From Pelagimonas phthalicica (GTDB lineage Bacteria > Pseudomonadota > Alphaproteobacteria > Rhodobacterales > Rhodobacteraceae): a stretch of DNA of 64,000 nt. This document shows positions 44,744 through 61,777 of this stretch, in pieces (within the stretch, counting starts at the first letter, position 1; each line of letters starts with the position of its first letter). Location: NCBI RefSeq assembly GCF_004364805.1, contig NZ_SOAP01000001.1:1798001-1862000 (forward strand), read 5' to 3'. Position numbers and translations under genes: made by a program. The notes under the pieces are model-generated. The model saw only the letters and a program-made list of their open reading frames with translations. It was not told the DNA's origin and did no database searches.

Positions 44744-45862
44744 TTAACGGCTGAGCGCTGCGCTTTGAGCTGAAAGACCTAGGATAGAACCGAACAAGCT
44801 AAAGATGGTGCGCAGGTTGTTTACCGGAGATTCTGTTGCCAGAACCGTGTCGCCTGGGCTGACCTCGAATTTGCGTGCGGCAAAGAGGCCATCGGCATCG
44901 GTCAGATCAAAGGTGAACACCACCTGTTGCAGGGTCGGGCCAACGGTTGCTGTGCTCAGATCCTCGGCCGAATATTCCCGCAAAATCAGCACGCCTTTTG
45001 GATCGGCACGTGTATCGGACAACCCGCCCATCAATGACATGGCTTCTAACGCGGTGAGGTGATCCTTTGGGAAATAGATCAGATCCTCTTTGCCAGACGC
45101 GCCAAAGGCGACAAAGCTGCGATCATCCTGTTCGACGACAATGGTGTCGCGCGGATGGAGCAGGGCGTTCTTGGACCCATCGGCCAGCAGTAGCTCGGAA
45201 GAGATTTCGTAAGTCTTGGAGCCACGGAGAAGGCGCACGCGCGGATTGCGCAGACCTGGTGGAATGCCGCCAGCATCTGCCAGGACGTTCAGCACTTTGT
45301 AATTGCGCGACGGCATCGGGTAGCTGCCAGGCTTGGCGACGCCGCCAACAACATCAACCGCATGATCGCGGCCCTGACGCAGGCTGACCTGTACCTGAGC
45401 GGATGGAACGATTGGATCCAGTCGGCTCTGGATCTTTTTGCGAGCGCCATCTGCAGTCAGACCACGCACACGGACCTTGTTCACATAAGGAAGAAAGATC
45501 GATCCGCCGCCATCAACCTCGACATTGTCGATAACCGTATAGTTCTGGCCTGGATTGGTGATTAGAGAATGATCCTGGCTGTCCCAAATCGTGATTGTCA
45601 CACGATCGCCTGACCGGATCGTCGACGAGTTCACACCTTCGCTGGTATTCGGCCAGTGGTAATGACCGTGCCAGCCGGTTTTTGGCCAGTTCAACAGATC
45701 GGGGATATTGCTGCGCGTGACCTCAACAACCTGAAAAGTCGGATCTTCCGACGCCTTTTCATTGGTGATTTCGGACTGCAATGCCGCCCCTCTGGGCAAG
45801 GAGCAGGCTGTCAATGTCACAAAGGACAGACATAGCAGGATGAGTTTCAAAGAAAGACGCAC
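44744..45862 (-). CDS. Polysaccharide export lipoprotein (Wza-like)
   Basis: The 372-residue product begins MRLSLKLILLCLSFVTLTAC, a lipoprotein signal with lipobox LTAC and Cys20. It carries a poly-export domain (IRSGDRVTITIWD...VDGGGSIFLPYVNKVRVRGLTADGARKKIQSRL) and SLBB-like repeats (VDVVGGVAKPGSYPM; VAFGASGKEDLIYF). It forms the outer-membrane channel for capsule or exopolysaccharide. GTG 45862 is preferred over a TTG at 45889 because a GGGGGG run lies before it and the signal peptide then starts cleanly. Confidence 0.88.
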   Translation of the reverse strand: MRLSLKLILLCLSFVTLTACSLPRGAALQSEITNEKASEDPTFQVVEVTRSNIPDLLNWPKTGWHGHYHWPNTSEGVNSSTIRSGDRVTITIWDSQDHSLITNPGQNYTVIDNVEVDGGGSIFLPYVNKVRVRGLTADGARKKIQSRLDPIVPSAQVQVSLRQGRDHAVDVVGGVAKPGSYPMPSRNYKVLNVLADAGGIPPGLRNPRVRLLRGSKTYEISSELLLADGSKNALLHPRDTIVVEQDDRSFVAFGASGKEDLIYFPKDHLTALEAMSLMGGLSDTRADPKGVLILREYSAEDLSTATVGPTLQQVVFTFDLTDADGLFAARKFEVSPGDTVLATESPVNNLRTIFSLFGSILGLSAQSAALSR

Positions 45863-45963
45863 GTTTGCCCCCCGGCCAAGCCACGACAATTTATTTGTTT
45901 CTAGCCAATGAAGTCATTGATAGACAGAGCCTTAATGGATTGAAAGCAGATTGAAGGCAAAGA

Positions 45964-46824
45964 GTGGCGCCAGAACCGCAAAAAATCAGAACGCTTGTCC
46001 TGGGCGCAAGCGGGAAAATCGGCCGTATGTTGCGTGCCTCTTGGACCCTGAAACCCCCGCAAGATATTGAATTTATTTACGTCTATCGCAATGATCCGCC
46101 TGAGGAAGGCGGCATTGTTTGGACCCCCGAGGAAAGTTGCGAAAACTTACCTGATATTGATGTTATATTGGCGCTTTGGGGGGCGACGCCGTCAAATGGC
46201 AGCGCCTTGAACGCCAATGTTTCCCTTGCACATAGCGCCCTTAAGCTTGCCCTTGCCAAGGGCGCTCGAAAGGTCCTGCATTGCTCCTCAGCGGCCGTTT
46301 ACGCTCCGCAGGGGCACGTGTTGAGCGAAGAGGACGCCGGCGAGGCGGCGAATGCCTATGGGCAGTCCAAGCTTGAAATGGAGCGGGCAATTCAGGCCTG
46401 GGATCAAGAGAACCCTGGGAAGATCGAAAACGTGATGCTGAGGATCGGCAATGTGGCGGGTGCAGAGTCTTTGTTTGGGAATATGACACCGGGAGGCGAG
46501 GTGTTTCTGGACAGGTTTCCAAATGGAAAAGGACCAGAGAGAAGTTACATCGCACCGCCGGATTTGGGGCAGGTGATTGCCGATTTGATCCGTGCCAAGA
46601 CTGTCACCGGCCCGATCAATGTCGCATCACCAGAACCCGTCGAAATGGCCGAGCTGGCCGTGGCTGCGGGTTGTCATGTGACTTGGAAACCGGCCCCGGG
46701 AAATGCCGTCCAATCGGTGGTTTTGGATACGCGCAGGTTACAGGCAATCTGTGATTTAGGCGCGAATGCGTCTGATCCCACCCATCTGGTTGAAGGGGCA
46801 AAAATCGGAGGGGTTTGGCCATGA
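45964..46824 (+). CDS. NAD-dependent epimerase/dehydratase (extended SDR)
   Basis: The 286-residue product has the Rossmann loop VLGASGKIGRM at about 12-22, the active-site pattern CSSAAVYAP followed by AYGQSKLEME (Tyr-x3-Lys), and a GPINVASPEPVEMAEL end. It likely changes a nucleotide sugar used by the neighbouring sugar transferase. The start is GTG with GAAGG upstream. The stop overlaps the sugar-transferase ATG by 4 bases. It is divergent from the Wza-like gene. Confidence 0.8.
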   Translation: MAPEPQKIRTLVLGASGKIGRMLRASWTLKPPQDIEFIYVYRNDPPEEGGIVWTPEESCENLPDIDVILALWGATPSNGSALNANVSLAHSALKLALAKGARKVLHCSSAAVYAPQGHVLSEEDAGEAANAYGQSKLEMERAIQAWDQENPGKIENVMLRIGNVAGAESLFGNMTPGGEVFLDRFPNGKGPERSYIAPPDLGQVIADLIRAKTVTGPINVASPEPVEMAELAVAAGCHVTWKPAPGNAVQSVVLDTRRLQAICDLGANASDPTHLVEGAKIGGVWP

Positions 46825-47432
46825 AGCTTGCTAATCGCTCCTTTGACATCTTCTTTGTCTTGCTGTTTCTGCCATTTCTTTTGCCCGCCATCATCCTGGT
46901 GCCGTTGGCAATTCTGATCCTGGATGGCCGGCCTGTTCTCTACGTGTCCGAGCGGATGAATTCCCCAAAACAGGGCTTTAACTTGCTCAAATTTCGCACG
47001 ATGCATTTTGATCCTGATGATCAAGGCGTGTCAGGCGGGGATAAAGAGGCGCGTATCACCAAAACCGGTGCCTTTTTGCGGCGCTACAGGTTGGATGAGC
47101 TTCCCCAACTATGGAACATCTTCAAAGGCGATATCCGTTTTGTCGGCCCGCGCCCGCCACTGCGCCATTACGTGGAAAAATTTCCGGAGATCTATGGCGA
47201 GGTTCTGAAATCGCGTCCCGGGGTCACCGGATTGGCGACATTGGCCTATCACAAGACCGAAGAGCGTCTTTTGTCTGTGTGCGAAACGGCTGAAGAGACC
47301 GAAGAGGTCTATTGCCGCCGTTGCGTGCCGCGTAAGGCCAAGCTTGACCTGATCTATGCGCAAAACCAGACGCCCTGCACGGATATCCATATGATGTGCG
47401 TGACAATGTACCGAAAGATTCCGATACATTAA
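46821..47432 (+). CDS. Initiating sugar transferase (polyprenyl-phosphate sugar-phosphotransferase family)
   Basis: The 203-residue product has one membrane segment (FFVLLFLPFLLPAIILVPLAILIL), then FNLLKFRTM, RITKTGAFLRRYRLDELPQLWNIFKGDIRFVGPRPPL and RPGVTGLATL, the signature set of initiating sugar transferases. It lacks the extra N-terminal membrane helices of WbaP, so it is the short PglC-like form. It loads the first sugar onto undecaprenyl phosphate. It is coupled to the epimerase gene. Confidence 0.9.
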   Translation: MKLANRSFDIFFVLLFLPFLLPAIILVPLAILILDGRPVLYVSERMNSPKQGFNLLKFRTMHFDPDDQGVSGGDKEARITKTGAFLRRYRLDELPQLWNIFKGDIRFVGPRPPLRHYVEKFPEIYGEVLKSRPGVTGLATLAYHKTEERLLSVCETAEETEEVYCRRCVPRKAKLDLIYAQNQTPCTDIHMMCVTMYRKIPIH

Positions 47433-47443
47433 AAGGGCTTAGG

Positions 47444-47468
47444 AAGGACGTGAGAGCGTCAGGTCCTT
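47444..47468. terminator. Imperfect hairpin between convergent sugar-transferase and yjbF-like genes
   Basis: AAGGAC (47444-47449) pairs with GTCCTT (47463-47468), with an inner TGA/TCA pairing. It overlaps the stop of the leftward yjbF-like gene and could end either transcript. There is no long T-run. Confidence 0.4.
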
Positions 47469-48141
47469 ATTGGCGAAGGGCCTGCACGTTCATATAGCCG
47501 ATGACATCACCCAACCATTGGCGTCCGCTCAGAATGTTTCCGCGTGCATCAACGACATAGAGATTGTTAAAACTGCCGCCATCGCCCGAGCAATTGGCGG
47601 TTACCGCGACACCTTTGGAATTAACTTCGCCCAAGGCAACCGCGTGGGTATCCCCAACATCCAACTTGCATTCAAATGCCAGGACCCGTGTCTGGTTGTC
47701 CGAGGTCAAGAAACGCATAACATAAGACGCGGTTCCAACGGAGCGGTTACGCACCAATGACAGCAATGCGCCCTCATCCGAGGACATGAGATCACCGCCA
47801 AAGCCGCGTGTTGAAACCATCATGCCATTGCGCTGGGCAATGGTCTGACGCGCGCGCGAGCCATAGGTTTGATACCCTTGGTTTCTTTCGACCTCGACCA
47901 GGATGAACTGTGCCTTGGTGTTTTCCAACACATAGACGGAAACCGGTTTTTCCGTCGCCGCAAGCACCTGGCCGATCTGTTCCGGTGTGACCGTGGGGAT
48001 CACCGGCTCTTGCTTGGTAAACAACGTAGGCAGAGTTTTCAGGCTGACCAGCGGAGCTTCTTTATTGCTTCCCAGACAGCCTGCCAAGGTCGTCACAAGG
48101 GCAATGCCAAGCGCCAGCTTTGCGTTTCTTACCATGCTCAT
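47467..48141 (-). CDS. YjbF-family lipoprotein
   Basis: The 224-residue product has a lipoprotein signal (MSMVRNAKLALGIALVTTLAGC, Cys22) and the YjbF body: VYVLENTKAQFILVEVERNQGYQTYGS, MMVSTRGFGGDLMSSD and a C-terminal ILSGRQWLGDVIGYMNV. In E. coli yjbEFGH and the related gfc genes serve exopolysaccharide secretion. Its ATG overlaps the YjbH-like stop by 4 bases, so the two are coupled. Confidence 0.82.
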   Translation of the reverse strand: MSMVRNAKLALGIALVTTLAGCLGSNKEAPLVSLKTLPTLFTKQEPVIPTVTPEQIGQVLAATEKPVSVYVLENTKAQFILVEVERNQGYQTYGSRARQTIAQRNGMMVSTRGFGGDLMSSDEGALLSLVRNRSVGTASYVMRFLTSDNQTRVLAFECKLDVGDTHAVALGEVNSKGVAVTANCSGDGGSFNNLYVVDARGNILSGRQWLGDVIGYMNVQALRQ

Positions 48142-50288
48142 CGCCAGAACCTTCCCCAGGATTTTGCAATTTCCGGTTCATGATATTCCCGGGTTTCTTC
48201 ATACAAACGTCCGCGGACATTCAGGCGGGCACCGCCATCGCGTGACAAGGATTGAATGGTCACCGGGTTCACCTTGCGGGATGGTTGGCCAATGAACGGT
48301 GCCAATGGGATGTAGAAACGCAGCCCCTTGTCAAACGAACCTTCGCCGAAATCCTCAGCTGAGACGTTGGTAAAGGTCGCATAAGCGCCGACTTTCCAAC
48401 CATTGGCAAATTCACGGTCAATGGAGATGGTGCCGCCGTAATCCCCGGCAAGGTAACGACCCACATCCAACTGACCATGGAAGCCGTTGCCCAAGTCGTA
48501 ATAGGCCGAAATATGCCCGTTCACATGCGGGATATCGTATTTTGCACCGGTTTCCGGATCGACGGTTGTCATGTCCTGGAAGCCAAAGAGCTGGTCGTAA
48601 TCGCGGCGCTGGATATAGTTCAGCTCGGCCCCCAAAGCGAACCGGCTGTTGACTGGCTTCCAAAGCAGTTCGGCGGACACGCCACCATACATGCGTTCGA
48701 GATAACCTACCGAGAGGCGGGAATAGAGGTTGCGACCAGGGCGACCATAGGCGGCCACCTGCAGGTATTCGATGGCCGGATCACCCTCACGGGAATAGAT
48801 GTCATTGTCGGTGCGAACCCGTGGCAGGGCGGATTCATCTGAACGCCCCTCTTTGTCCAGGTTCCCGGCAAGCTTTTTGGTGATCGAGCCTTCCAAAACG
48901 ATATTGGGGCGAATGTAATATTCAGCAGAGGCGCGCACACCGACATCAAGCTTGACCGGCTGGCTTGGGTTGAACACGGACATGTCCACATAGGGGGCAA
49001 GGCGCCACTCGAATTTGGGATAGAGCCCGTCATTGGGTTTCAGACCCAGATTATACCCGTCAATGATACTGGCTTCGGCCAGCATTTTGTCCGCGCTTTC
49101 GTGCTCCAGCCGTTCCAGGTCGGAGCGTTTGAGGATCACCGCAGACATCGGAACACCGTTCGCAATCGGAACGATAACGAATTCTTCGATCGAGGCCGGC
49201 ATGGACCGGCTCATTGTTCTGGCAAGGCGGCCAATTGCCTGCGAAGGCGCGCCAAAACGCGGGTTCACAAGGCGGACGGTGGCGCGATGGTTCTCAAGCT
49301 TGACCGCTTCGACAACCAAACCCTCTTTGGCTGCGAGGACACCCAAGGCATTTTTGGCGTTTGAGCTGGCATTGGCATCCAGCGTCCAGCCAAGATCGGC
49401 GATTTCGCTTGGATTGCGTGGTTTGATCGCGACGCCGGCGGGTTCAACACCGCCGGGGATACCTTGGAACTTGGGGTTGGTCGACAAGGTGAACTGCGCG
49501 CCCACCTCGGTGCCGTGCACATGGTACAGCGACAGCTGGTTGCCGTTTTTGAACCGGTAATCGATGCCAAAGTTCCAGGGGCTTGTGCGTTCAATCTGGC
49601 CTGCACCAACCTCGTTGGCATAGGCGTCTGAAGAATATTCCAGTTTGAAATTCCAGCGGTCGTTTGGCGCATAGGACACGCCGCCAAAGGCAGAAATATC
49701 ACCGCGGAACCAGCGGTCATAGGTTGGAATACCGCCCAGCTCCAAAGTGATGTCAGAGCGCGTTCCGGCTGAGGCAAAGGAATTGTAACTGCCCAAACGC
49801 CCCCAACCGATACCGCCGGTTACTTTCAAACCCGGCGACAAGGTTTTGGTCGCGACAAGGTATTCCGCGCTGTAAAGACCGGTGCCCAAAACGTCGCGCA
49901 TGCCCAAGGTTAAAGCTGGGCGATATTTGGACTCCCGCAGGATCTGGTAGCTGACGTCAAAGCTGCGGTCGAAATAGACGTCATCCCAGTCATCATTGTC
50001 CACAAAATTGGCCAAAGCCGTATAGCGAAAATAACCAGCGAGGCGCGGGGTGATCTGAAACCCGATGGTCGAGCGCATCGTATCGCCAACATAGGAAAAG
50101 GTTGTCGACAGGGTCGCATCAGGCGCAGTTTCGGCCGTTGGCATATCGATCAGGCCAGGCGAGCCATGCAAGTTGAACGACGGCACGCGCGGTGCCTCTT
50201 GCGCGTTGGCCGCCATGGCTGACAATGAGACAGATGCAAACCCGAATACGGCGCGTTTCATCACGCCCTGCAACCGAGAATTCGGCAT
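48138..50288 (-). CDS. YjbH-family outer-membrane exopolysaccharide protein
   Basis: The 716-residue product has an N-terminal export signal (cleavage near ANA-QE, residue 29), then HGSPGLIDMPTAETAPDATLSTTFSYVGD and alternating beta-rich stretches to the end (for example GNGFHGQLDVGRYLAGDYGGTISIDREFANGWKVGAYATFTN). This is the YjbH layout, predicted as an outer-membrane beta-barrel. ATG 50288 with AGAGG 8 bases upstream is chosen; an internal ATG at 50261 is the alternative. With the YjbF-like lipoprotein it would form the outer part of the export machine. Confidence 0.85.
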   Translation of the reverse strand: MPNSRLQGVMKRAVFGFASVSLSAMAANAQEAPRVPSFNLHGSPGLIDMPTAETAPDATLSTTFSYVGDTMRSTIGFQITPRLAGYFRYTALANFVDNDDWDDVYFDRSFDVSYQILRESKYRPALTLGMRDVLGTGLYSAEYLVATKTLSPGLKVTGGIGWGRLGSYNSFASAGTRSDITLELGGIPTYDRWFRGDISAFGGVSYAPNDRWNFKLEYSSDAYANEVGAGQIERTSPWNFGIDYRFKNGNQLSLYHVHGTEVGAQFTLSTNPKFQGIPGGVEPAGVAIKPRNPSEIADLGWTLDANASSNAKNALGVLAAKEGLVVEAVKLENHRATVRLVNPRFGAPSQAIGRLARTMSRSMPASIEEFVIVPIANGVPMSAVILKRSDLERLEHESADKMLAEASIIDGYNLGLKPNDGLYPKFEWRLAPYVDMSVFNPSQPVKLDVGVRASAEYYIRPNIVLEGSITKKLAGNLDKEGRSDESALPRVRTDNDIYSREGDPAIEYLQVAAYGRPGRNLYSRLSVGYLERMYGGVSAELLWKPVNSRFALGAELNYIQRRDYDQLFGFQDMTTVDPETGAKYDIPHVNGHISAYYDLGNGFHGQLDVGRYLAGDYGGTISIDREFANGWKVGAYATFTNVSAEDFGEGSFDKGLRFYIPLAPFIGQPSRKVNPVTIQSLSRDGGARLNVRGRLYEETREYHEPEIAKSWGRFWR

Positions 50289-50438: not shown

Positions 50439-50485
50439 AACCTTTGCGGTTAAACCTTGTCTCGGTGAGAGAAAAAGGTGGTGAG

Positions 50486-51322
50486 ATGAGTGGCGACGGC
50501 GAACTGGCGCCAGTCATCATCAAACGCAAGAAAGTCGTCGGTGGCGATGGGCATCATGGTGGTGCCTGGAAGGTAGCATATGCTGACTTCGTGACCGCAA
50601 TGATGGCTTTCTTTCTGTTGATGTGGCTGTTGAACGCGACAACCGAAAAACAACGTAAAGGGATTGCTGATTACTTCAGCCCAACCATTGCCATGGCTCG
50701 TGTGTCAGGTGGTGGTACAGGGGCGCTGGGCGGTGATTCCGTCTTTGCGGAGAATACGTTACCTCGGATGGGCACGGGCTCGACCAGCCTGCATGCGCAA
50801 CCTGAAAAGGGGGCGGCGGGTGCCCATACATCTGGCGAAGATGACGAGGATGCCGTCGAAGAAGAGGTATTCGAGGTTGTCGAAGATCTGCTGATGGGCC
50901 GTGGTGGCGAAAGCATGGTGGCGGATGAATTGCTTGAACATATTGTCACCCGAACCACTGACGAAGGCCTGGTCATCGAACTGTTCGAAACCGAACAGGC
51001 GCGTTTGTTCCGGGATGAAACCAAGCCAACCAAACTGCTCGAAGACCTGTCGCGCCTGATTGTTGAGGCATCCTACATCGTCACAAATGGCCTGGCGGTC
51101 GAAGGGCATACTTCCGCCTATCCGATCGTGATGACCGAAAATCCGGCATGGGAAGTATCAGCCGCGCGCGCAACCGTGTTCCGGGAATTGCTGTTGTCCT
51201 CTGGGTTGGAATCAAGCCGCGTAACGCGCGTGACGTCTTATGCAGACCGCGATCCTGTGCGTAAGAACCACATGGATATCAGAAATAACAGGATCGAAGT
51301 GGTGTTCTTACGCGGTCAATAG
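50486..51322 (+). CDS. motB: Flagellar motor stator protein MotB
   Basis: The 278-residue product has one membrane helix with AYADFVTAMMAFFLLMWLLN, where Asp34 is the proton-binding aspartate, and a C-terminal OmpA-like wall-binding domain (LAVEGHTSAYPI...WEVSAARATVFRELLLSSGL...NRIEVVF). A long acidic linker (EDDEDAVEEEVFEVVEDLL) lies between. ATG 50486 is chosen because AGGTGGTGAG precedes it. MotA is 5 kb away rather than adjacent. Confidence 0.92.
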   Translation: MSGDGELAPVIIKRKKVVGGDGHHGGAWKVAYADFVTAMMAFFLLMWLLNATTEKQRKGIADYFSPTIAMARVSGGGTGALGGDSVFAENTLPRMGTGSTSLHAQPEKGAAGAHTSGEDDEDAVEEEVFEVVEDLLMGRGGESMVADELLEHIVTRTTDEGLVIELFETEQARLFRDETKPTKLLEDLSRLIVEASYIVTNGLAVEGHTSAYPIVMTENPAWEVSAARATVFRELLLSSGLESSRVTRVTSYADRDPVRKNHMDIRNNRIEVVFLRGQ

Positions 51323-54238: not shown

Positions 54239-55237
54239 ATGCAATCAGTAGGGGATATGGCCCGGGCGCTGGTTCTTAGAACCAATCAGGTCCGACTTCG
54301 CGAAGAAATGGACAAATTGGCGGTTGAGGTGTCCACCGGTTTCGTCACGGATTCCGCCAAGCATCTGAATGGCGATCTGACCAGCCTGCAAGAGATTGAT
54401 CGAACGCTTTCAAAACTCGAAGCCTACCGGATCAACACGACCGAGGCCTCGTATATTACATCAACCATGCAGACGAGCTTGGATGAAATCCAATCACGCA
54501 GTCAGACGCTGTCGCAGACCTTGATTGCCGCCGATCTGACGCCAACCGATCCGCTGTTGAACACGATGTCAGTTGACGCTGCAAATACCTTGGACCAGGT
54601 CATGACCGGCATGAACCGATCCGTCGCGGGGCGCACATTGTTTGGCGGTGTCGCCACAGATCGTCCGGCCGTGGCGGATAGCGAAGATATGTTGGCTGAC
54701 CTGCGCGTTCTGTTGGCGGGCGAAACAACATTGGCAGGTATCGAAGCCCAGCTCGACACGTTTTTCGGGGCAGGGGGCACCTATGACACCGTCACCTATG
54801 AGGGGTCTAACACCGGCTTGGCACCCTTTCAGCTAAGCGAAACCGATTCCGCAAATGTCGATATCCGCGCCAGCGACCCGGTGTTTAAAGAGATGTTGAA
54901 ACCGCTGGCGATGGCTGCCTTGGCCTCGGACGGCAGCTTGGGCTTTGACACGGAACTGCAGGTCGAAATCCTCTCAGCTGCGGGCCGTGATCTGCTGGGC
55001 GCACAACAATCCATGGTCGAGCTGCGCGCTGGGCTTGGTGCGCTTGAGGCGCGGATAGAAGAAACAACAACCAGGAATGCCGCCGAAACCTCCTCGGCCA
55101 GCCTGGCGCGCTTGGAACTGGTCGGGACGGATCAGTATGAATCCGCCGCCAAATACGAGAGCATTCGTGGCCAGTTGGAAAGCCTCTATGCAATCACGGC
55201 GCGGTCGCAACGCCTGTCGCTTGCGGGGTACCTATGA
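54239..55237 (+). CDS. flgL: Flagellar hook-filament junction protein FlgL (HAP3)
   Basis: The 332-residue product starts MQSVGDMARALVLRTNQVRLREEMDKLAVEVSTGFVTDSAKHLNGD, a flagellin-like N-terminus, and ends with AKYESIRGQLESLYAITARSQRLSLAGYL, a flagellin-like C-terminus. It is the second junction protein. GAGGAGGAC precedes the ATG, and the end overlaps flgI by 4 bases. Confidence 0.9.
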   Translation: MQSVGDMARALVLRTNQVRLREEMDKLAVEVSTGFVTDSAKHLNGDLTSLQEIDRTLSKLEAYRINTTEASYITSTMQTSLDEIQSRSQTLSQTLIAADLTPTDPLLNTMSVDAANTLDQVMTGMNRSVAGRTLFGGVATDRPAVADSEDMLADLRVLLAGETTLAGIEAQLDTFFGAGGTYDTVTYEGSNTGLAPFQLSETDSANVDIRASDPVFKEMLKPLAMAALASDGSLGFDTELQVEILSAAGRDLLGAQQSMVELRAGLGALEARIEETTTRNAAETSSASLARLELVGTDQYESAAKYESIRGQLESLYAITARSQRLSLAGYL

Positions 55238-56343
55238 TGCTTAGATTACTCTCTGCAGCTCTGCTGACCATTTTCTCATTTGTGCACGTTGCGCATGCCC
55301 AGTCGGTCAGGATCAAGGATTTGGTTGAATTTGAAGGGGTTCGATCAAACGATCTGGTCGGATATGGCCTGGTTGTCGGTTTGAACGGCACCGGTGATGG
55401 CTTGCGAAACTCGCCCTTTACCGAAGACATCATGTCCAACATTCTGGAACGGCTTGGTGTCAACGTGACCGGCGAACAATTCCGTCCGCGCAACGTCGCT
55501 GCCGTATTGGTGACCGCGCGCTTACCGGCCTTTGCCCGTTCCGGGGGCCAAATTGATGTCACGGTTTCTGCCATTGGTGACGCCAAAAGCCTGTTGGGCG
55601 GCACCTTGATCATGACACCGATGAATGCGGCCGACGGACAGATTTACGCGGTGGCGCAGGGAACGGTGATCGCTGGTGGCGTTGAGGCTGAAGGCGACGC
55701 AGCCAAAGTTGTTCAGGGGGTGCCGACGGCTGGGGTAATTCCATCTGGTGCCCGAGTTGAGCGCGAAGTTGATTTCGACTTTTCCCAACTGTCGAGCCTG
55801 CGTCTTGCCCTGCGTGAACCTGATTTTACCACCGCCGCCCGGATCGAGGATGTCATCAACCGCTCGATCGGGCGCCGTGCGGCGACCATGAACGATGCCG
55901 GGACTGTGACGATAAACCTGAAACAAACCGGGGCCCGATCCCCGGCGCGTGCCGTTGTGACCATCGAAAACCTGACCGTCGAACCGGAACGCAAAGCACG
56001 TGTTGTTGTTGATCAGCGATCCGGCACGATTGTCATGGGGTCAGATGTCCGGATTTCCCGCGTTGCGGTGTCTCAAGGCAACCTCACTCTTCGGATCGAA
56101 GAAGCACCGCTCGCAATCCAACCCAACCCTTTCAGCGAGGGTGAAACGGTGGTTGTCCCAAGAACCGGCGCAGCAATCGAAGAAGAGCCTGGAATTGGCT
56201 TGGCCTTGGTGCCGGGTGGCACGTCATTGTCCGAAGTCATCGCCGGCCTGAACGCCCTCGGGGTGAGCCCGCGTGACATGATCGACATCCTCAAAAGCAT
56301 CAAAGCGGCCGGGGCACTGCATGCTGATTTCGTTGTCATGTGA
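55234..56343 (+). CDS. flgI: Flagellar P-ring protein FlgI
   Basis: The 369-residue product has a signal peptide (to about HAQSVR) and the FlgI core: VGYGLVVGLNGTGDG, FTEDIMSNILERLGVNV, KNVAAVLVTARLPAF and VVDQRSGTIVMGSDVRISRVAVSQGNLT, ending in AGALHADFVVM. It forms the ring in the peptidoglycan layer around the rod. A small hairpin GGGTT/AACCC (56364-56377) lies between flgI and motA. Confidence 0.95.
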   Translation: MMLRLLSAALLTIFSFVHVAHAQSVRIKDLVEFEGVRSNDLVGYGLVVGLNGTGDGLRNSPFTEDIMSNILERLGVNVTGEQFRPRNVAAVLVTARLPAFARSGGQIDVTVSAIGDAKSLLGGTLIMTPMNAADGQIYAVAQGTVIAGGVEAEGDAAKVVQGVPTAGVIPSGARVEREVDFDFSQLSSLRLALREPDFTTAARIEDVINRSIGRRAATMNDAGTVTINLKQTGARSPARAVVTIENLTVEPERKARVVVDQRSGTIVMGSDVRISRVAVSQGNLTLRIEEAPLAIQPNPFSEGETVVVPRTGAAIEEEPGIGLALVPGGTSLSEVIAGLNALGVSPRDMIDILKSIKAAGALHADFVVM

Positions 56344-56420: not shown

Positions 56421-57290
56421 ATGCTGGGAATCATTGGGATCGTTGTGATTTTTGCAATGGTTTTTGGGGGTTATGTTGCCGCTGGCGGCAAAATGGGCAT
56501 CATTATCAAAGCGTTGCCGTTTGAGATGATGATGATCGGCGGTGCTGCTGTCGGTGCCTTTATGATCAGTAATGACGGTCCAGCAGTCAAACACACGCTG
56601 AAAGACATTTCCAAGGTCTTCAAAGGCGCGAAATGGAAGAATGAAGATTACCGCGATCTTCTTTGTCTGCTGTTTGAGCTCATCCGGCTGGCCCGCCAAA
56701 ACCCGGTGGCAATCGAAGAGCATATCGAAACACCGACCGAATCCAACATCTTTGAAAAGTATCCCAAGATCTTGGGCGATAAATATGCGCTGGAGCTGAT
56801 CTGCGACACGATGCGGTCTGTATCGATGAACTATGACGATCCCCACCAGGTCGAAGAGGTCCTGGATAAGCGTTTGGATAGCATGTCTCATCACGCACAG
56901 CATTCCAGCCACGCTCTGCAGTCCACGGCCGACGCCCTTCCCGCTCTTGGGATTGTTGCTGCGGTGTTGGGGGTTATCAAAACCATGGCCTCAATCGATC
57001 AGCCACCAGAAGTTTTGGGTAAAATGATTGGTGGCGCTCTGGTCGGGACGTTCCTGGGTGTTTTTCTGGCCTATGGCATTGTCGCGCCGTTCGCCTCCAA
57101 GGTGAAGGCGGTTGTCGAAGATGATCTGCACTTCTATCACCTGATCAGAGAGGTTTTGGTGGCGAATTTGCACAATCACGCGACCAATATTTGCATCGAG
57201 GTCGGGCGACAGAACACGCCTTCGCAATACAGGCCAAGCTTTGAAGACCTGGAAGAGGCTTTGAAATCTGTAAAACAGGAGGCCGCATGA
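56421..57290 (+). CDS. motA: Flagellar motor stator protein MotA
   Basis: The 289-residue product has four membrane segments (1-19, 30-47, about 171-190, 202-225) and the MotA motifs GGYVAAGGKMGII, PFEMMMIGGAAVGAFM, and ALPALGIVAAVLGVIKTM with the large cytoplasmic loop between. With MotB it forms the proton channel. Its stop overlaps the start of the 746-residue protein by 4 bases. Confidence 0.94.
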   Translation: MLGIIGIVVIFAMVFGGYVAAGGKMGIIIKALPFEMMMIGGAAVGAFMISNDGPAVKHTLKDISKVFKGAKWKNEDYRDLLCLLFELIRLARQNPVAIEEHIETPTESNIFEKYPKILGDKYALELICDTMRSVSMNYDDPHQVEEVLDKRLDSMSHHAQHSSHALQSTADALPALGIVAAVLGVIKTMASIDQPPEVLGKMIGGALVGTFLGVFLAYGIVAPFASKVKAVVEDDLHFYHLIREVLVANLHNHATNICIEVGRQNTPSQYRPSFEDLEEALKSVKQEAA

Positions 57291-59527
57291 TACGCGCGCT
57301 TCTCATTTTCGTCGCGACCCTGCCAGGGGTCGCATCGGCGCAAGACGTGGTCGTACGCAGTGGCGAACACGGTGATTTCACCCGGCTGGTTTTCGACATT
57401 CCTCCTTCAGCTGTTTGGGAATTGGCACAAGAACCGGGTAAGCGGGCTGCGCGCTTGAGTTTCATTAAAACTGGAATCGAATTCGATTTAAGCCGAGCGT
57501 TTGAAAAGATAGCACGCGATCGCGTTTCTGATCTGGTGCGTGTCGAGGGGCAATCGGCCCTGGATATTGTGTTGGATTGTGACTGTGATGCACAGGCATT
57601 TGTACTGCGTGAGCGTATGTTGGTCGTTGATATCAAAGACAAAGAAAACCCAGAAAATCCTGCTGTGGTTGTCGAGAACAATCAGACCATCAAACATGAA
57701 AAACAAGGCGCCGATAACGCAGCCGATAACAGTGTCACAACGGAGTTGACCAACCTTTGGCTTGGACCCGCAGCAAGGATCGGACCGCCCAAACAGAATA
57801 CCGTGATCCCGCTAGGTGTGCCGTTACAACGGAGCGCGATAGATGTCGAAAGCCCGGCTTTGGACAGTGCTGATGCCGGAACTGTCAGAAACCAGATATT
57901 TAACGATGTCGCCGGTGCGGCATCACAGGGATTGTTGGACCATTCCAGAAATTTTGCGGCAGCTCCGCCGCGAAAAACGCAAATTGCTGAAAACCAGGAC
58001 GCACCGGCGGGTGAAGGGTACGATCCTCAAACCGAGGCAATTTTGGAAGAGGTCATACTCAAAAAGGGCCGTATTTCCATTGGAGGGCAGGATTGTACTC
58101 CTAACCCCAAATTGAACATCGCGAAATGGGTTGATGCCGATTCCGATATCAACATGGCACTTTCCGCGCGGCGAGGTGCGGTTTTTGGAGAGTTCGACCG
58201 GATCAATCAGGACGCTGTTCGGACCCTCGCCAAGAGCACGTTGTACTTTGGATTTGGCGCTGAAACCAGAACAGTTCTACAGTTGCAGGATCGAGGTCCT
58301 GACACGGTACTATCCGCATTGTCCTATTTGGTAGATGGCGACAAAGACCCTTCGGCCTATTTTGCGCAACAATTGGCTTGCGAAGGTCATTCCGCTCTTT
58401 GGGCTGCCATTGATGGTAGCCAGATGACCAGCAGCTCTGATTTGAACACACCCGCCATTTTGCGCAGCTTTGAATTGTTGCCCAAACATCTTCGCGAACA
58501 TCTGGGCCCGATCCTGGCAGATAACTTTACGCAGGCCGGGTTCACTGCGATTGCCAAAGACGTTTTGCGTCGTTTGCAACGTACAAGCGGCGAGGAAACC
58601 GACAGTATCAAGCTCGGCAAAGCCCATATCGATATGATGGAGGGCAATGAGGAAGATGCAGCAGAAGCATTGAAAGAGCTCACCGTGTCTCAGAGCCCTG
58701 AAACCGCAAAAGCTGTCGTTGCGACGGTTGAAATTGCGCGGTCCACCGGCGACCAAGTGTCTGAGCGTATTGTCGATCTTTCTGCCGCTTATTCTGCAGA
58801 ATTGCGAGATACTGAACAGGGGCCTGAATTGTGGCAGGCGCATGTTACATCATTGATTGTCAATGAACGGTTTGAGGAAGCGTTGGAGGTTTTAAATGAC
58901 GTTGATGGCGTTTCTGAAGACCTCGTCGTGAAGGCCAAGAACGAAGCTTTCGCGGCGATTTTCCAAAAAGCTGACGACGTGGCTTTCCTAAAATTCTTTT
59001 TCCACAAGCTGCCAAACCCGCAGAGCGAGTTGGAAGACAAGAATATGCTTATGGCGGCGAAGCGGGTTCTGAGCCTGGGATTGCCCAAAGCTGCGCTGGA
59101 AACATTGGAAAAAATCACAAATCCCGAACTGGTGCCAGACGTAAGAATGCTCAAGGCGCAGGCATTGATCGACCTCTCTCGACCAGAAGAGGCTGAGATT
59201 TTGCTAATCGGATTGACCGGCGACAATGTGGCTCGACTAAGGGCAAAGGCTCGCAGCCTGATGGGTGACCATAATTTTGCGCAAACCATCTATGCGGAGC
59301 TAGGTGAAGAAGACCAAGAAGTAACCGAGGCCTGGTTGTCTGGTGATTGGAACAGTATTGCTGACCAAGAAAGCCCGCTTGCTCCCGCCGCCCAATTGTT
59401 TGCTGAGGCACCCTTTGAACTGGCGGAAGGCACAGTGAGTTTGCAAGAAGCTGAAACTCTCTTTGGATCCAGTGCGGATGCACGCAAAGCAATTTCCGAG
59501 ATGTTGCAAGCTACTCAGTTCGAATAG
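57287..59527 (+). CDS. Large periplasmic protein of unknown function, coupled to motA
   Basis: The 746-residue product has a signal peptide (MIRALLIFVATLPGVASAQD). Residues 20-125 look beta-rich and AMIN-like (VVVRSGEHGDFTRLVFDIP), followed by a low-complexity linker (about 125-265). Residues 265 to the end form a helical-repeat region with TPR-like units (for example AEALKELTVSQSPETAKAVVATVEIARSTGD; AAKRVLSLGLPKAALETLEKIT). I do not recognise a named family. The coupling to motA and place between motA and flhA suggest a motor or stator role, comparable in position to MotC of rhizobia, but no homology is claimed. Confidence 0.6.
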   Translation: MIRALLIFVATLPGVASAQDVVVRSGEHGDFTRLVFDIPPSAVWELAQEPGKRAARLSFIKTGIEFDLSRAFEKIARDRVSDLVRVEGQSALDIVLDCDCDAQAFVLRERMLVVDIKDKENPENPAVVVENNQTIKHEKQGADNAADNSVTTELTNLWLGPAARIGPPKQNTVIPLGVPLQRSAIDVESPALDSADAGTVRNQIFNDVAGAASQGLLDHSRNFAAAPPRKTQIAENQDAPAGEGYDPQTEAILEEVILKKGRISIGGQDCTPNPKLNIAKWVDADSDINMALSARRGAVFGEFDRINQDAVRTLAKSTLYFGFGAETRTVLQLQDRGPDTVLSALSYLVDGDKDPSAYFAQQLACEGHSALWAAIDGSQMTSSSDLNTPAILRSFELLPKHLREHLGPILADNFTQAGFTAIAKDVLRRLQRTSGEETDSIKLGKAHIDMMEGNEEDAAEALKELTVSQSPETAKAVVATVEIARSTGDQVSERIVDLSAAYSAELRDTEQGPELWQAHVTSLIVNERFEEALEVLNDVDGVSEDLVVKAKNEAFAAIFQKADDVAFLKFFFHKLPNPQSELEDKNMLMAAKRVLSLGLPKAALETLEKITNPELVPDVRMLKAQALIDLSRPEEAEILLIGLTGDNVARLRAKARSLMGDHNFAQTIYAELGEEDQEVTEAWLSGDWNSIADQESPLAPAAQLFAEAPFELAEGTVSLQEAETLFGSSADARKAISEMLQATQFE

Positions 59528-59695: not shown

Positions 59696-61777
59696 GTGAA
59701 ATCAAAGTCGTTTGAGCTGTTCAATCCGACGATTCTGATGGCTTTGGCATTGATGGCGATCATCGTCATGATGATTTTGCCCATGCCGTCCTGGGTTTTG
59801 GATGTCGGCCTTGCCGCCTCCTTTGGCTTGGCCATTCTGATTTTTACGGTTACCCTCTTTATCGAACGGCCGCTGGATTTTTCGGCATTCCCGACCATCC
59901 TTCTGACCTCATTGATGCTGCGGTTATCGCTCAATGTCAGTTCGACAAAACTAATCATCGGGGAAGGGCATACAGGAACGCATGCCGCGGGCGAAGTGAT
60001 CCAGGGATTTGCCAATTTTGTCATGGGCGGATCCGTCTTTCTGGGGCTGGTCGTTTTTGGCGTCCTGATGATCGTGAATTTCGCCGTTATCACAAAGGGT
60101 TCCGCCCGAATGGCAGAAGTGTCAGCGCGTTTCGCCCTGGATGGGATGCCGGGCAAACAATTGGCGATTGATGCTGATATGTCGGCTGGGGCAATTGATC
60201 ACGAAGAGGCCAAGCTGCGCCGCGAAACAGAACAACAGGAGACCACCTTTTTCGGATCGCTGGATGGCGCTTCTAAATTTGTCAAAGGTGATGCAATTGC
60301 AGGTCTGTTGATCACGGCGCTCAATCTGATCATGGGTATGATCATGGGCGTTGTCGTTCACGATATGCCGCTCGCCAGCGCGATGGAGACCTATGCGATT
60401 TTGACCGTTGGGGACGGGTTGGTTTCTCAGATTCCTGCCGTCATCATTTCTATTGCGGCGGGTTTGCTTTTGGCCCGTGGCGGCTCAAATGTTGCTGCGG
60501 ATGTTGCGGTCGTTGGGCAGCTTGGTCGCCACCCGGCCGCGCTGATGACGGTTGCGGTTTTGATGGCGCTGTTTGCCTTGGTTCCAGGGCTTCCCTTCAT
60601 ACCATTCATGGCTGGGGCGGCTGTTTTGGGTGCGACGGCCTGGTGGTTGCGAAAAAACAAACCAGACGAAACCGAAGCCGAACCAACCGAAGTTGAATCG
60701 ACCGAGCCAATGGTGCGGCCCATGGGCGATGTTTTGGACCTTGACGATATCCATGTCGAATTCGCGCCGGATCTGGTCAATATGGCGCTTGATCCGGGCA
60801 CCGGTTTGGATGTGCGCATCGCCAATATGCGCAACCATATTGCCTCGAACTTCGGCTTGATCCTGCCCGAAATCCGTTTGACCGATGCCTCGTCTCTGCC
60901 CACAGGGACTTATGTTGTTCGTATCCATGGCGTGGAAATGGCACGGGGGGAATTGAATGCGGATCTGGTTTTGGCCCTCGTACCCGAAGATTCAGGATCT
61001 TTGCCCAGCGGTCAGGATGTGACCGAACCGGTTTATGGTGCGCCCGCCCGGTGGATTCGCCCCGAAGATCAAGAGCGTGCGGCCATTACCGGCGTGACAA
61101 TCGTTTCCCCAGCCGAAGTTCTGGCCACGCATCTTTTGGAAGTCATCAGGCGCAACTTTGGCCGTCTCTTGACGTTCAAAGCCCTGCGTCGGCTCTTGGA
61201 TGAAATGGTGTCCTTGTCCAATCCCACCAGAGCCGAAGCGAACCGGAAACTTTTGGACGAACTCATTCCCGACAAGGTTCAAATCGACACGCTACACCAG
61301 GTTCTTCGCCTGTTGCTGGATGAACAGGTTTCCGTCCGCAACCTGCCTTTGATCCTCGAAGCGATTTCAGAAATGCGCGGCCAGCAAACCCGTCCTGAGC
61401 TGATCTGTGAACATGTTCGACAGCGCATGGGTTTCCAGCTTGTTGCTGGGATGCGCCGTGAAGACGGAACCATTCCGTTAATCCAACTGGCCCCAGAATG
61501 GGAAGATACGTTCACGACGTATCAAATTGATGGCGGCCAAGGTGCTTTGGACGTGGCTTTGCCACCCGATAGGTTTGAGGCGCTGACCAAAGGGCTTGCC
61601 GAACAAATTGGCGAAGCAGGGTCCCGAGGGGTTGTTCCTGCAGTGGTGACATCAGCGCGCCGACGGCGATTCTTGCGCACGGTTATGGCGGCAAAGGGCA
61701 TCACAAACCCGGTTATGTCCTTTGAGGAAATTGGTGTCGAAGCACGGCCAACTCTGGTCGGGGTGGTGGCCGCGTGA
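59696..61777 (+). CDS. flhA: Flagellar type III export protein FlhA
   Basis: The 693-residue product has eight predicted N-terminal membrane helices, with SAFPTILLTSLMLRLSLNVSSTKLIIG and the cytoplasmic loop FALDGMPGKQLAIDADMSAGAIDHEEAKLRR (FHIPEP-region motif). A large C-terminal domain follows (from about 340). It is the gate of the flagellar export apparatus. The start is GTG at 59696 (MKSKSFELFNPTI); the stop overlaps fliR by 4 bases. Confidence 0.95.
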   Translation: MKSKSFELFNPTILMALALMAIIVMMILPMPSWVLDVGLAASFGLAILIFTVTLFIERPLDFSAFPTILLTSLMLRLSLNVSSTKLIIGEGHTGTHAAGEVIQGFANFVMGGSVFLGLVVFGVLMIVNFAVITKGSARMAEVSARFALDGMPGKQLAIDADMSAGAIDHEEAKLRRETEQQETTFFGSLDGASKFVKGDAIAGLLITALNLIMGMIMGVVVHDMPLASAMETYAILTVGDGLVSQIPAVIISIAAGLLLARGGSNVAADVAVVGQLGRHPAALMTVAVLMALFALVPGLPFIPFMAGAAVLGATAWWLRKNKPDETEAEPTEVESTEPMVRPMGDVLDLDDIHVEFAPDLVNMALDPGTGLDVRIANMRNHIASNFGLILPEIRLTDASSLPTGTYVVRIHGVEMARGELNADLVLALVPEDSGSLPSGQDVTEPVYGAPARWIRPEDQERAAITGVTIVSPAEVLATHLLEVIRRNFGRLLTFKALRRLLDEMVSLSNPTRAEANRKLLDELIPDKVQIDTLHQVLRLLLDEQVSVRNLPLILEAISEMRGQQTRPELICEHVRQRMGFQLVAGMRREDGTIPLIQLAPEWEDTFTTYQIDGGQGALDVALPPDRFEALTKGLAEQIGEAGSRGVVPAVVTSARRRRFLRTVMAAKGITNPVMSFEEIGVEARPTLVGVVAA

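Follow-up and report, generated by a model that had tools for sequence, protein, structure and literature searches.

A conserved gene between motA and flhA

What is the large gene that sits between motA and flhA in Pelagimonas phthalicica, and what might its product do for the flagellar motor? The window, by which we mean the whole stretch of 64,000 nucleotides analysed here, contains an intact open reading frame of 746 aa with an ATG start (57287-59527, + strand, from the ORF listing). The frame begins inside motA (56421-57290, +; Pfam MotA_N and MotA_ExbB), the last four bases of which, ATGA (57287-57290, +), hold both the stop of motA and the ATG of the following frame. Its own stop lies 168 bases before the start of the flhA frame (59696-61777, +; Pfam FHIPEP), which encodes the sole FlhA match in the P. 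phthalicica genome, and flgI lies near motA (55234-56343, +; Pfam FlgI). An earlier note, made from the letters of this DNA, had described a 746-residue protein coupled to motA and preceding flhA, and this description stands. The four-base overlap is kept across loci: with the start codon picked that lies nearest to the -4 place, 30 of 31 loci (the window locus among them) and 23 of 32 further loci show this spacing from the motA stop. The window protein, used as query P0001, has one match in its own genome and matches 195 of 295 genomes of the family, its own included, so the reading frame is conserved far beyond chance. Beside the flagellar cluster, at 44744-50288, the window also holds genes whose products resemble polysaccharide export and YjbH-type proteins.

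Homology to MotK

The earlier note called this protein unrecognised. That label is wrong, because the protein has a homologue in MotK of Cereibacter sphaeroides, published in 2024 (PMC10954123). As described there, MotK is periplasmic, has 652 aa and combines an AMIN-like start with TPR-like helices, and its gene follows motA2 in an operon ordered fliL, pflI, motE, motA, motK. The motK mutant is reported to be flagellated yet paralysed, MotK binds MotE and MotB2, and MotK-sfGFP forms foci at the flagellated pole that require MotA2 and MotB2 (PMC10954123). The same paper already proposed Roseobacter homologues of MotK, naming Dshi_3259.

The MotK reference for all of our comparisons is the copy in genome G051, whose operon encodes MotE of 185 aa, MotA of 289 aa and MotK of 652 aa. 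We infer that G051 is C. sphaeroides because these MotK and MotE lengths match those in PMC10954123, because a MotA of 289 aa fits the motA2 PCR length given there, because the single MotE cysteine, at 49, corresponds to the published C20 after a 29-residue signal, and because MotK of Cereibacter johrii, the sole named relative found for the G051 protein, is 91% identical to it. Against this reference the window protein shows 27% identity by BLASTP (165 of 616 columns, E 3e-49), and hhalign of the window protein profile gives a probability of 100 over 564 columns. The gene at 57287-59527 (+) is therefore, on sequence grounds, a motK homologue, and it very probably encodes a motor protein of a known kind. 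The homology to MotK, which belongs to the Fla2 flagellum of C. sphaeroides, covers window protein residues 5-603 with a shared domain order; in both species the gene lies directly after motA, the product has a signal-like start, and MotE is encoded in the genome. The two differ in length (746 aa versus 652 aa), and beyond residue 603 the window protein aligns with the proline-rich tail of C. sphaeroides MotK. They differ in gene order as well, with motE and fliL about 92 kb before the window rather than within the motK operon, and with a transglycosylase-like gene between motK and flhA in G051 that has no homologue at that place in the window.

A phmmer search of the window protein against PDB sequences reached a best E of 0.21. 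Identity as a type III secretion chaperone was considered and set aside, as the NCBIfam SctY match (21 bits against a cut-off of 70) was taken as a generic TPR match.

Predicted architecture

Read from its start, the protein has a putative signal peptide at residues 1-18 (57287-57340, +), recognised by eye: it begins MIRALLIFVATLPGVASA and continues with Q after the putative cut. An AlphaFold2 model built on 30 homologues (mean pLDDT 82.6 for the full chain) places nine strands within 20-118, in a domain spanning residues 19-120 (57341-57646, +) with a CxC motif at 98/100. A mostly disordered linker follows at residues 121-287 (57647-58147, +), where pLDDT falls below 50 at 123-157, 170-194 and 220-266 and a helix is predicted at 196-213. 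The rest is a predicted TPR-like arm, residues 288-743 (58148-59515, +), with helices from 288 to 743 at pLDDT mostly above 90 and a TPR_19 match at residues 598-648 that is barely over the Pfam cut-off (25.7 bits against 25). Modelled alone, the N-terminal domain reaches a pLDDT of 95.4. Its PDB fold search gave no match at E 1e-3 or better; the top match was AmiC (4bin; TM 0.73 by query length, E 1.7e-3), the PilQ B2 domain gave TM 0.70 at E 0.03, and small heat-shock domains gave E values from 2.6e-3 with TM only about 0.5. At the level of the family, Pfam AMIN-like was found in 25 of 30 members at E<=1 (best 2.5e-5) and Pfam AMIN in 7 of 30, while the window domain alone scored 18.3 bits against AMIN-like, below the cut-off of 27. 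The AMIN fold of the N-terminal domain is thus well supported as a model-based assignment, and profile search and structure prediction together bear out the AMIN-like beta region, disordered linker and TPR-like helical repeats that the earlier note had proposed. The window protein contains only four cysteines, at 98, 100, 270 and 365, conserved in 61, 61, 59 and 60 of 61 homologues respectively (the remaining rows are gaps, and two rows were removed before counting); a disulfide between 270 and 365 is possible.

The earlier note considered the layout suited to wall binding plus protein scaffolding, and an AMIN fold whose best PDB match is AmiC, at a TM of 0.73, would fit a MotK homologue that works mainly as a clamp, with its AMIN domain anchored to peptidoglycan and opening MotB, and not as a spoke on a MotE ring. 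Wall anchoring that favours open MotB was in fact proposed by the MotK authors (PMC10954123). However, the corresponding parts of PflA in Campylobacter jejuni, its beta-sandwich and linker, have a protein, PflB, as their binding partner (PMC12222027), and a spoke would suit both the length of the helical arm and MotE as a partner. We regard a role mainly as a wall clamp as less likely than a spoke. The AMIN fold is also found in AmiC and PilQ, and the protein could in principle serve the envelope in general, as a relative of secretins or amidases, and lie in a flagellar locus by chance; Pfam detects no secretin or amidase catalytic domain in it, and the genomic company that it keeps, described below, makes such an origin extremely improbable. 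Identity as an amidase or as PilQ itself was rejected, the AMIN fold being all that is common to them.

Distribution in the family and co-occurrence with flhA

FlhA matches 227 of the 295 family genomes, and all 195 carriers of P0001 are among them, whereas P0001 matched none of the 68 FlhA-negative family genomes (0 of 68). The Fisher value for this co-occurrence, 1.8e-42, overstates independence because the genomes share ancestry. This pattern, together with motA in 62 of 63 loci, speaks against a general envelope protein placed by chance, and the conserved gene is very probably a flagellar motor gene of the kind described for MotK.

Thirty-two FlhA-positive genomes have no P0001 match, and 22 of these have a best FlhA score above 765 bits. 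A single FlhA match is present in 20 of those 22; the ten P0001 carriers in the same high-score class all have two. G051 belongs to this class and carries a high-score FlhA besides the FlhA adjoining motK, and this second copy suggests that the class probably represents a separate Fla1-type system. A profile search of the 32 FlhA-positive non-carriers and of 20 of the 68 FlhA-negative genomes matched 2 of 52: G004, one of the ten FlhA-positive non-carriers outside the high-score class, and G039. The other nine of these ten have no MotK by P0001 or by profile; some are incomplete, though G023, G054, G069 and G226 are 98-100% complete. In G039 the gene is naturally truncated: a shortened MotK of 309 aa (L038 1495-2421, also in L071) keeps the AMIN domain and a short rest but lacks most of the helical arm, and its locus has flagellar gene order with fliL, motE, motA and flhA. 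A first contig search with P0001 confirmed no relative, and a plasmid search with P0001 returned one record, from Paroceanicella profunda, where the order is fliL, a pflI-like gene (by eye), motE, motA, motK and flgF.

Gene order and MotE

We examined 63 loci, with flanks of about 1.5 kb except for the 26-kb L031, and found motA in 62, motE in 40 and flgI in 16. L059, the one locus in which motA is absent, begins close to the end of its contig. The window locus belongs to the flgI group, and most loci looked at have motE near motA. P. phthalicica instead has fliL, a DUF6468-like gene and motE in a separate cluster about 92 kb before the window, with motE at about G000:C1:1705439-1706086; its MotE-like product of 215 aa matches MgtE_N at 25.4 bits, slightly below the cut-off of 25.9. 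This MotE (L035 7440-8087) has no cysteine, and C. sphaeroides MotE is reported to have one disulfide-forming cysteine (PMC10954123), so a disulfide dimer of the C. sphaeroides type cannot form in the same way in P. phthalicica. Two further genes at these loci may be recorded. One is a frame after motE (L035 8065-8751) that encodes an L,D-transpeptidase (YkuD) domain and whose longest reading begins inside the motE end. The other is the transglycosylase-like gene (L069 7745-8422, with Pfam SLT in L069), homologues of which occur in 26 of 72 loci, two of them from G051, and none in the window.

The gene order bears on another alternative, in which the product would act on the stators or the P-ring as a chaperone or assembly factor without staying in the motor. 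Many chaperones have TPR arms, and flgI lies upstream of motA in the window. Furthermore, MotE of Sinorhizobium meliloti was originally described as a chaperone (PMC10954123). But flgI is present in only 16 of 63 loci, against 62 of 63 for motA, and the polar MotK-sfGFP foci of C. sphaeroides depend on MotA2 and MotB2 (PMC10954123). We therefore think an assembly role improbable, and clearly less probable than a wall clamp.

A proposed role as a motor spoke

We favour the reading in which the window gene is motK and its product is an exported periplasmic spoke that runs from a MotE ring to the stators and holds or activates MotA/MotB, and we hold this with considerable confidence. The gene is supported as motK by homology, by coupling to motA, by matches confined, within the family, to flhA-bearing genomes, by the predicted AMIN-linker-TPR layout and by the presence of motE in the genome. 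Weighing against the reading are the local character of the scaffold match in the PDB (see below), the FlhA-positive genomes outside the high-score class that lack MotK, and a motE that stands apart from motA-motK and encodes no cysteine. Paralysis, binding and localisation are known from the relative in C. sphaeroides (PMC10954123), and would carry over by analogy; export, geometry, the direction of the arm and stator activation are what we infer for P. phthalicica. Once exported, MotK would stand as a spoke radiating through the periplasmic section of the motor, with the helical arm pointing inward to a MotE ring around the MS-ring. The AMIN domain and linker at the N-terminal end would extend outward as far as the stators, in contact with peptidoglycan, MotB or both, and there MotK could hold or activate MotA/MotB stator units. 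A possible partner is the product of motB in the window (50444-51322, +; Pfam MotB_plug and OmpA), by analogy with C. sphaeroides (PMC10954123). The role of accessory motor part put forward in the earlier note is then probable, given MotK homology, motA coupling and flhA co-occurrence, although its restriction to one lineage looks too narrow (see below). Naming the gene in this way gives a testable role to a large gene of 195 of 295 sampled family genomes.

PflA, MotC and relatives beyond the family

A Foldseek search of the full model against the PDB placed 9hmf_K first (E 1.5e-9), followed by eukaryotic helical repeats (from 2.1e-5). With a TM of 0.16 and an rmsd of 43.5, the 9hmf_K match is a local one along a flexible chain and not a rigid superposition. 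Chain K has 773 residues, which fits what we take to be the length of mature PflA, and from this length chain K would be PflA. In the 9hmf entry the flagellar scaffold in the periplasm of C. jejuni is modelled by its alpha-carbons (PMC12222027). PflA, the spoke of the proximal disk, is described as having an AMIN-like beta-sandwich, a disordered linker and a TPR superhelix, a layout shared with our predicted model; the likeness rests on this layout and on the local fold match, and global superposition is poor. MotK, MotC and CC_2058 have been argued from structure to be PflA relatives, and MotE has likewise been grouped from structure with the E-ring protein (PMC11870540, PMC13023049). Our motK assignment also connects the motor of rhodobacteria with the design of E-ring and spokes seen in Campylobacter. 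The comparison with rhizobial MotC made in the earlier note holds insofar as MotC of S. meliloti is described as a fellow MotE-linked periplasmic accessory protein needed for rotation (PMC10954123, PMC13023049). Membership in MotC itself was rejected: MotC is described as a TPR protein that lacks an AMIN domain and has its gene after motB (PMC10954123, PMC13023049), whereas the window protein has an AMIN fold and its gene follows motA. CC_2058 of Caulobacter crescentus is described with an AMIN-like start, a TPR-like arm and a gene beside motE (PMC10954123, PMC13023049).

The idea of a lineage-specific part looks too narrow, because profile relatives adjoin motE in other alphaproteobacterial families. 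Searching 385 genomes of the class with a profile led by C. sphaeroides MotK gave matches in 140, of which 136 lie outside the family of P. phthalicica, though many of these hits score weakly and some may come from TPR or AMIN proteins of no relation. Across this set of 385, 221 genomes have an FlhA match: 125 of the 140 profile-matching genomes and 96 of the other 245. Among the 15 profile-matching genomes without FlhA, G318 and G487 still carry motE and fliL (L103, L104). In 20 class regions, taken mostly from the best-scoring genomes, we found a MotK-like ORF of more than 400 aa in 18, motE in 18, both in 17, and fliL or fliP in 18. Neither of the first two turned up in L112; L103 has motE, but the MotK-like frame there is incomplete, probably because the contig breaks off within it. 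The relatives have an AMIN-like start and a TPR-like arm and are mostly longer than the 746-aa window protein: 16 of the 18 measure 978-1354 aa, the other two 750 and 762 aa, and eight have two AMIN-like stretches.

This profile link to long AMIN-TPR proteins beside motE lends sequence support to a relation that has been argued mainly from structure. We tentatively suggest, while rating the chance at somewhat under even, that MotK, these long proteins and PflA belong to a single family of homologous spokes, which sequence comparison can follow through the class. In that case a MotE ring with spokes would be a feature of most flagellated Alphaproteobacteria, and whether a protein has one AMIN domain or two would set the reach of the spoke toward the wall.

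Plasmids gave matches as well. A tblastn search with one of these relatives found them on 17 plasmid records, from Azospirillum, Sulfitobacter, Sphingobium and Erythrobacter and in the TPR part only, and the three plasmid regions that we opened (Azospirillum, Sulfitobacter and Erythrobacter) are flagellar clusters. The Sulfitobacter plasmid region encodes a 605-aa TPR protein within its flagellar cluster (L114 6857-8674) that P0001 had missed, and similar matches are present on six further Sulfitobacter plasmids.
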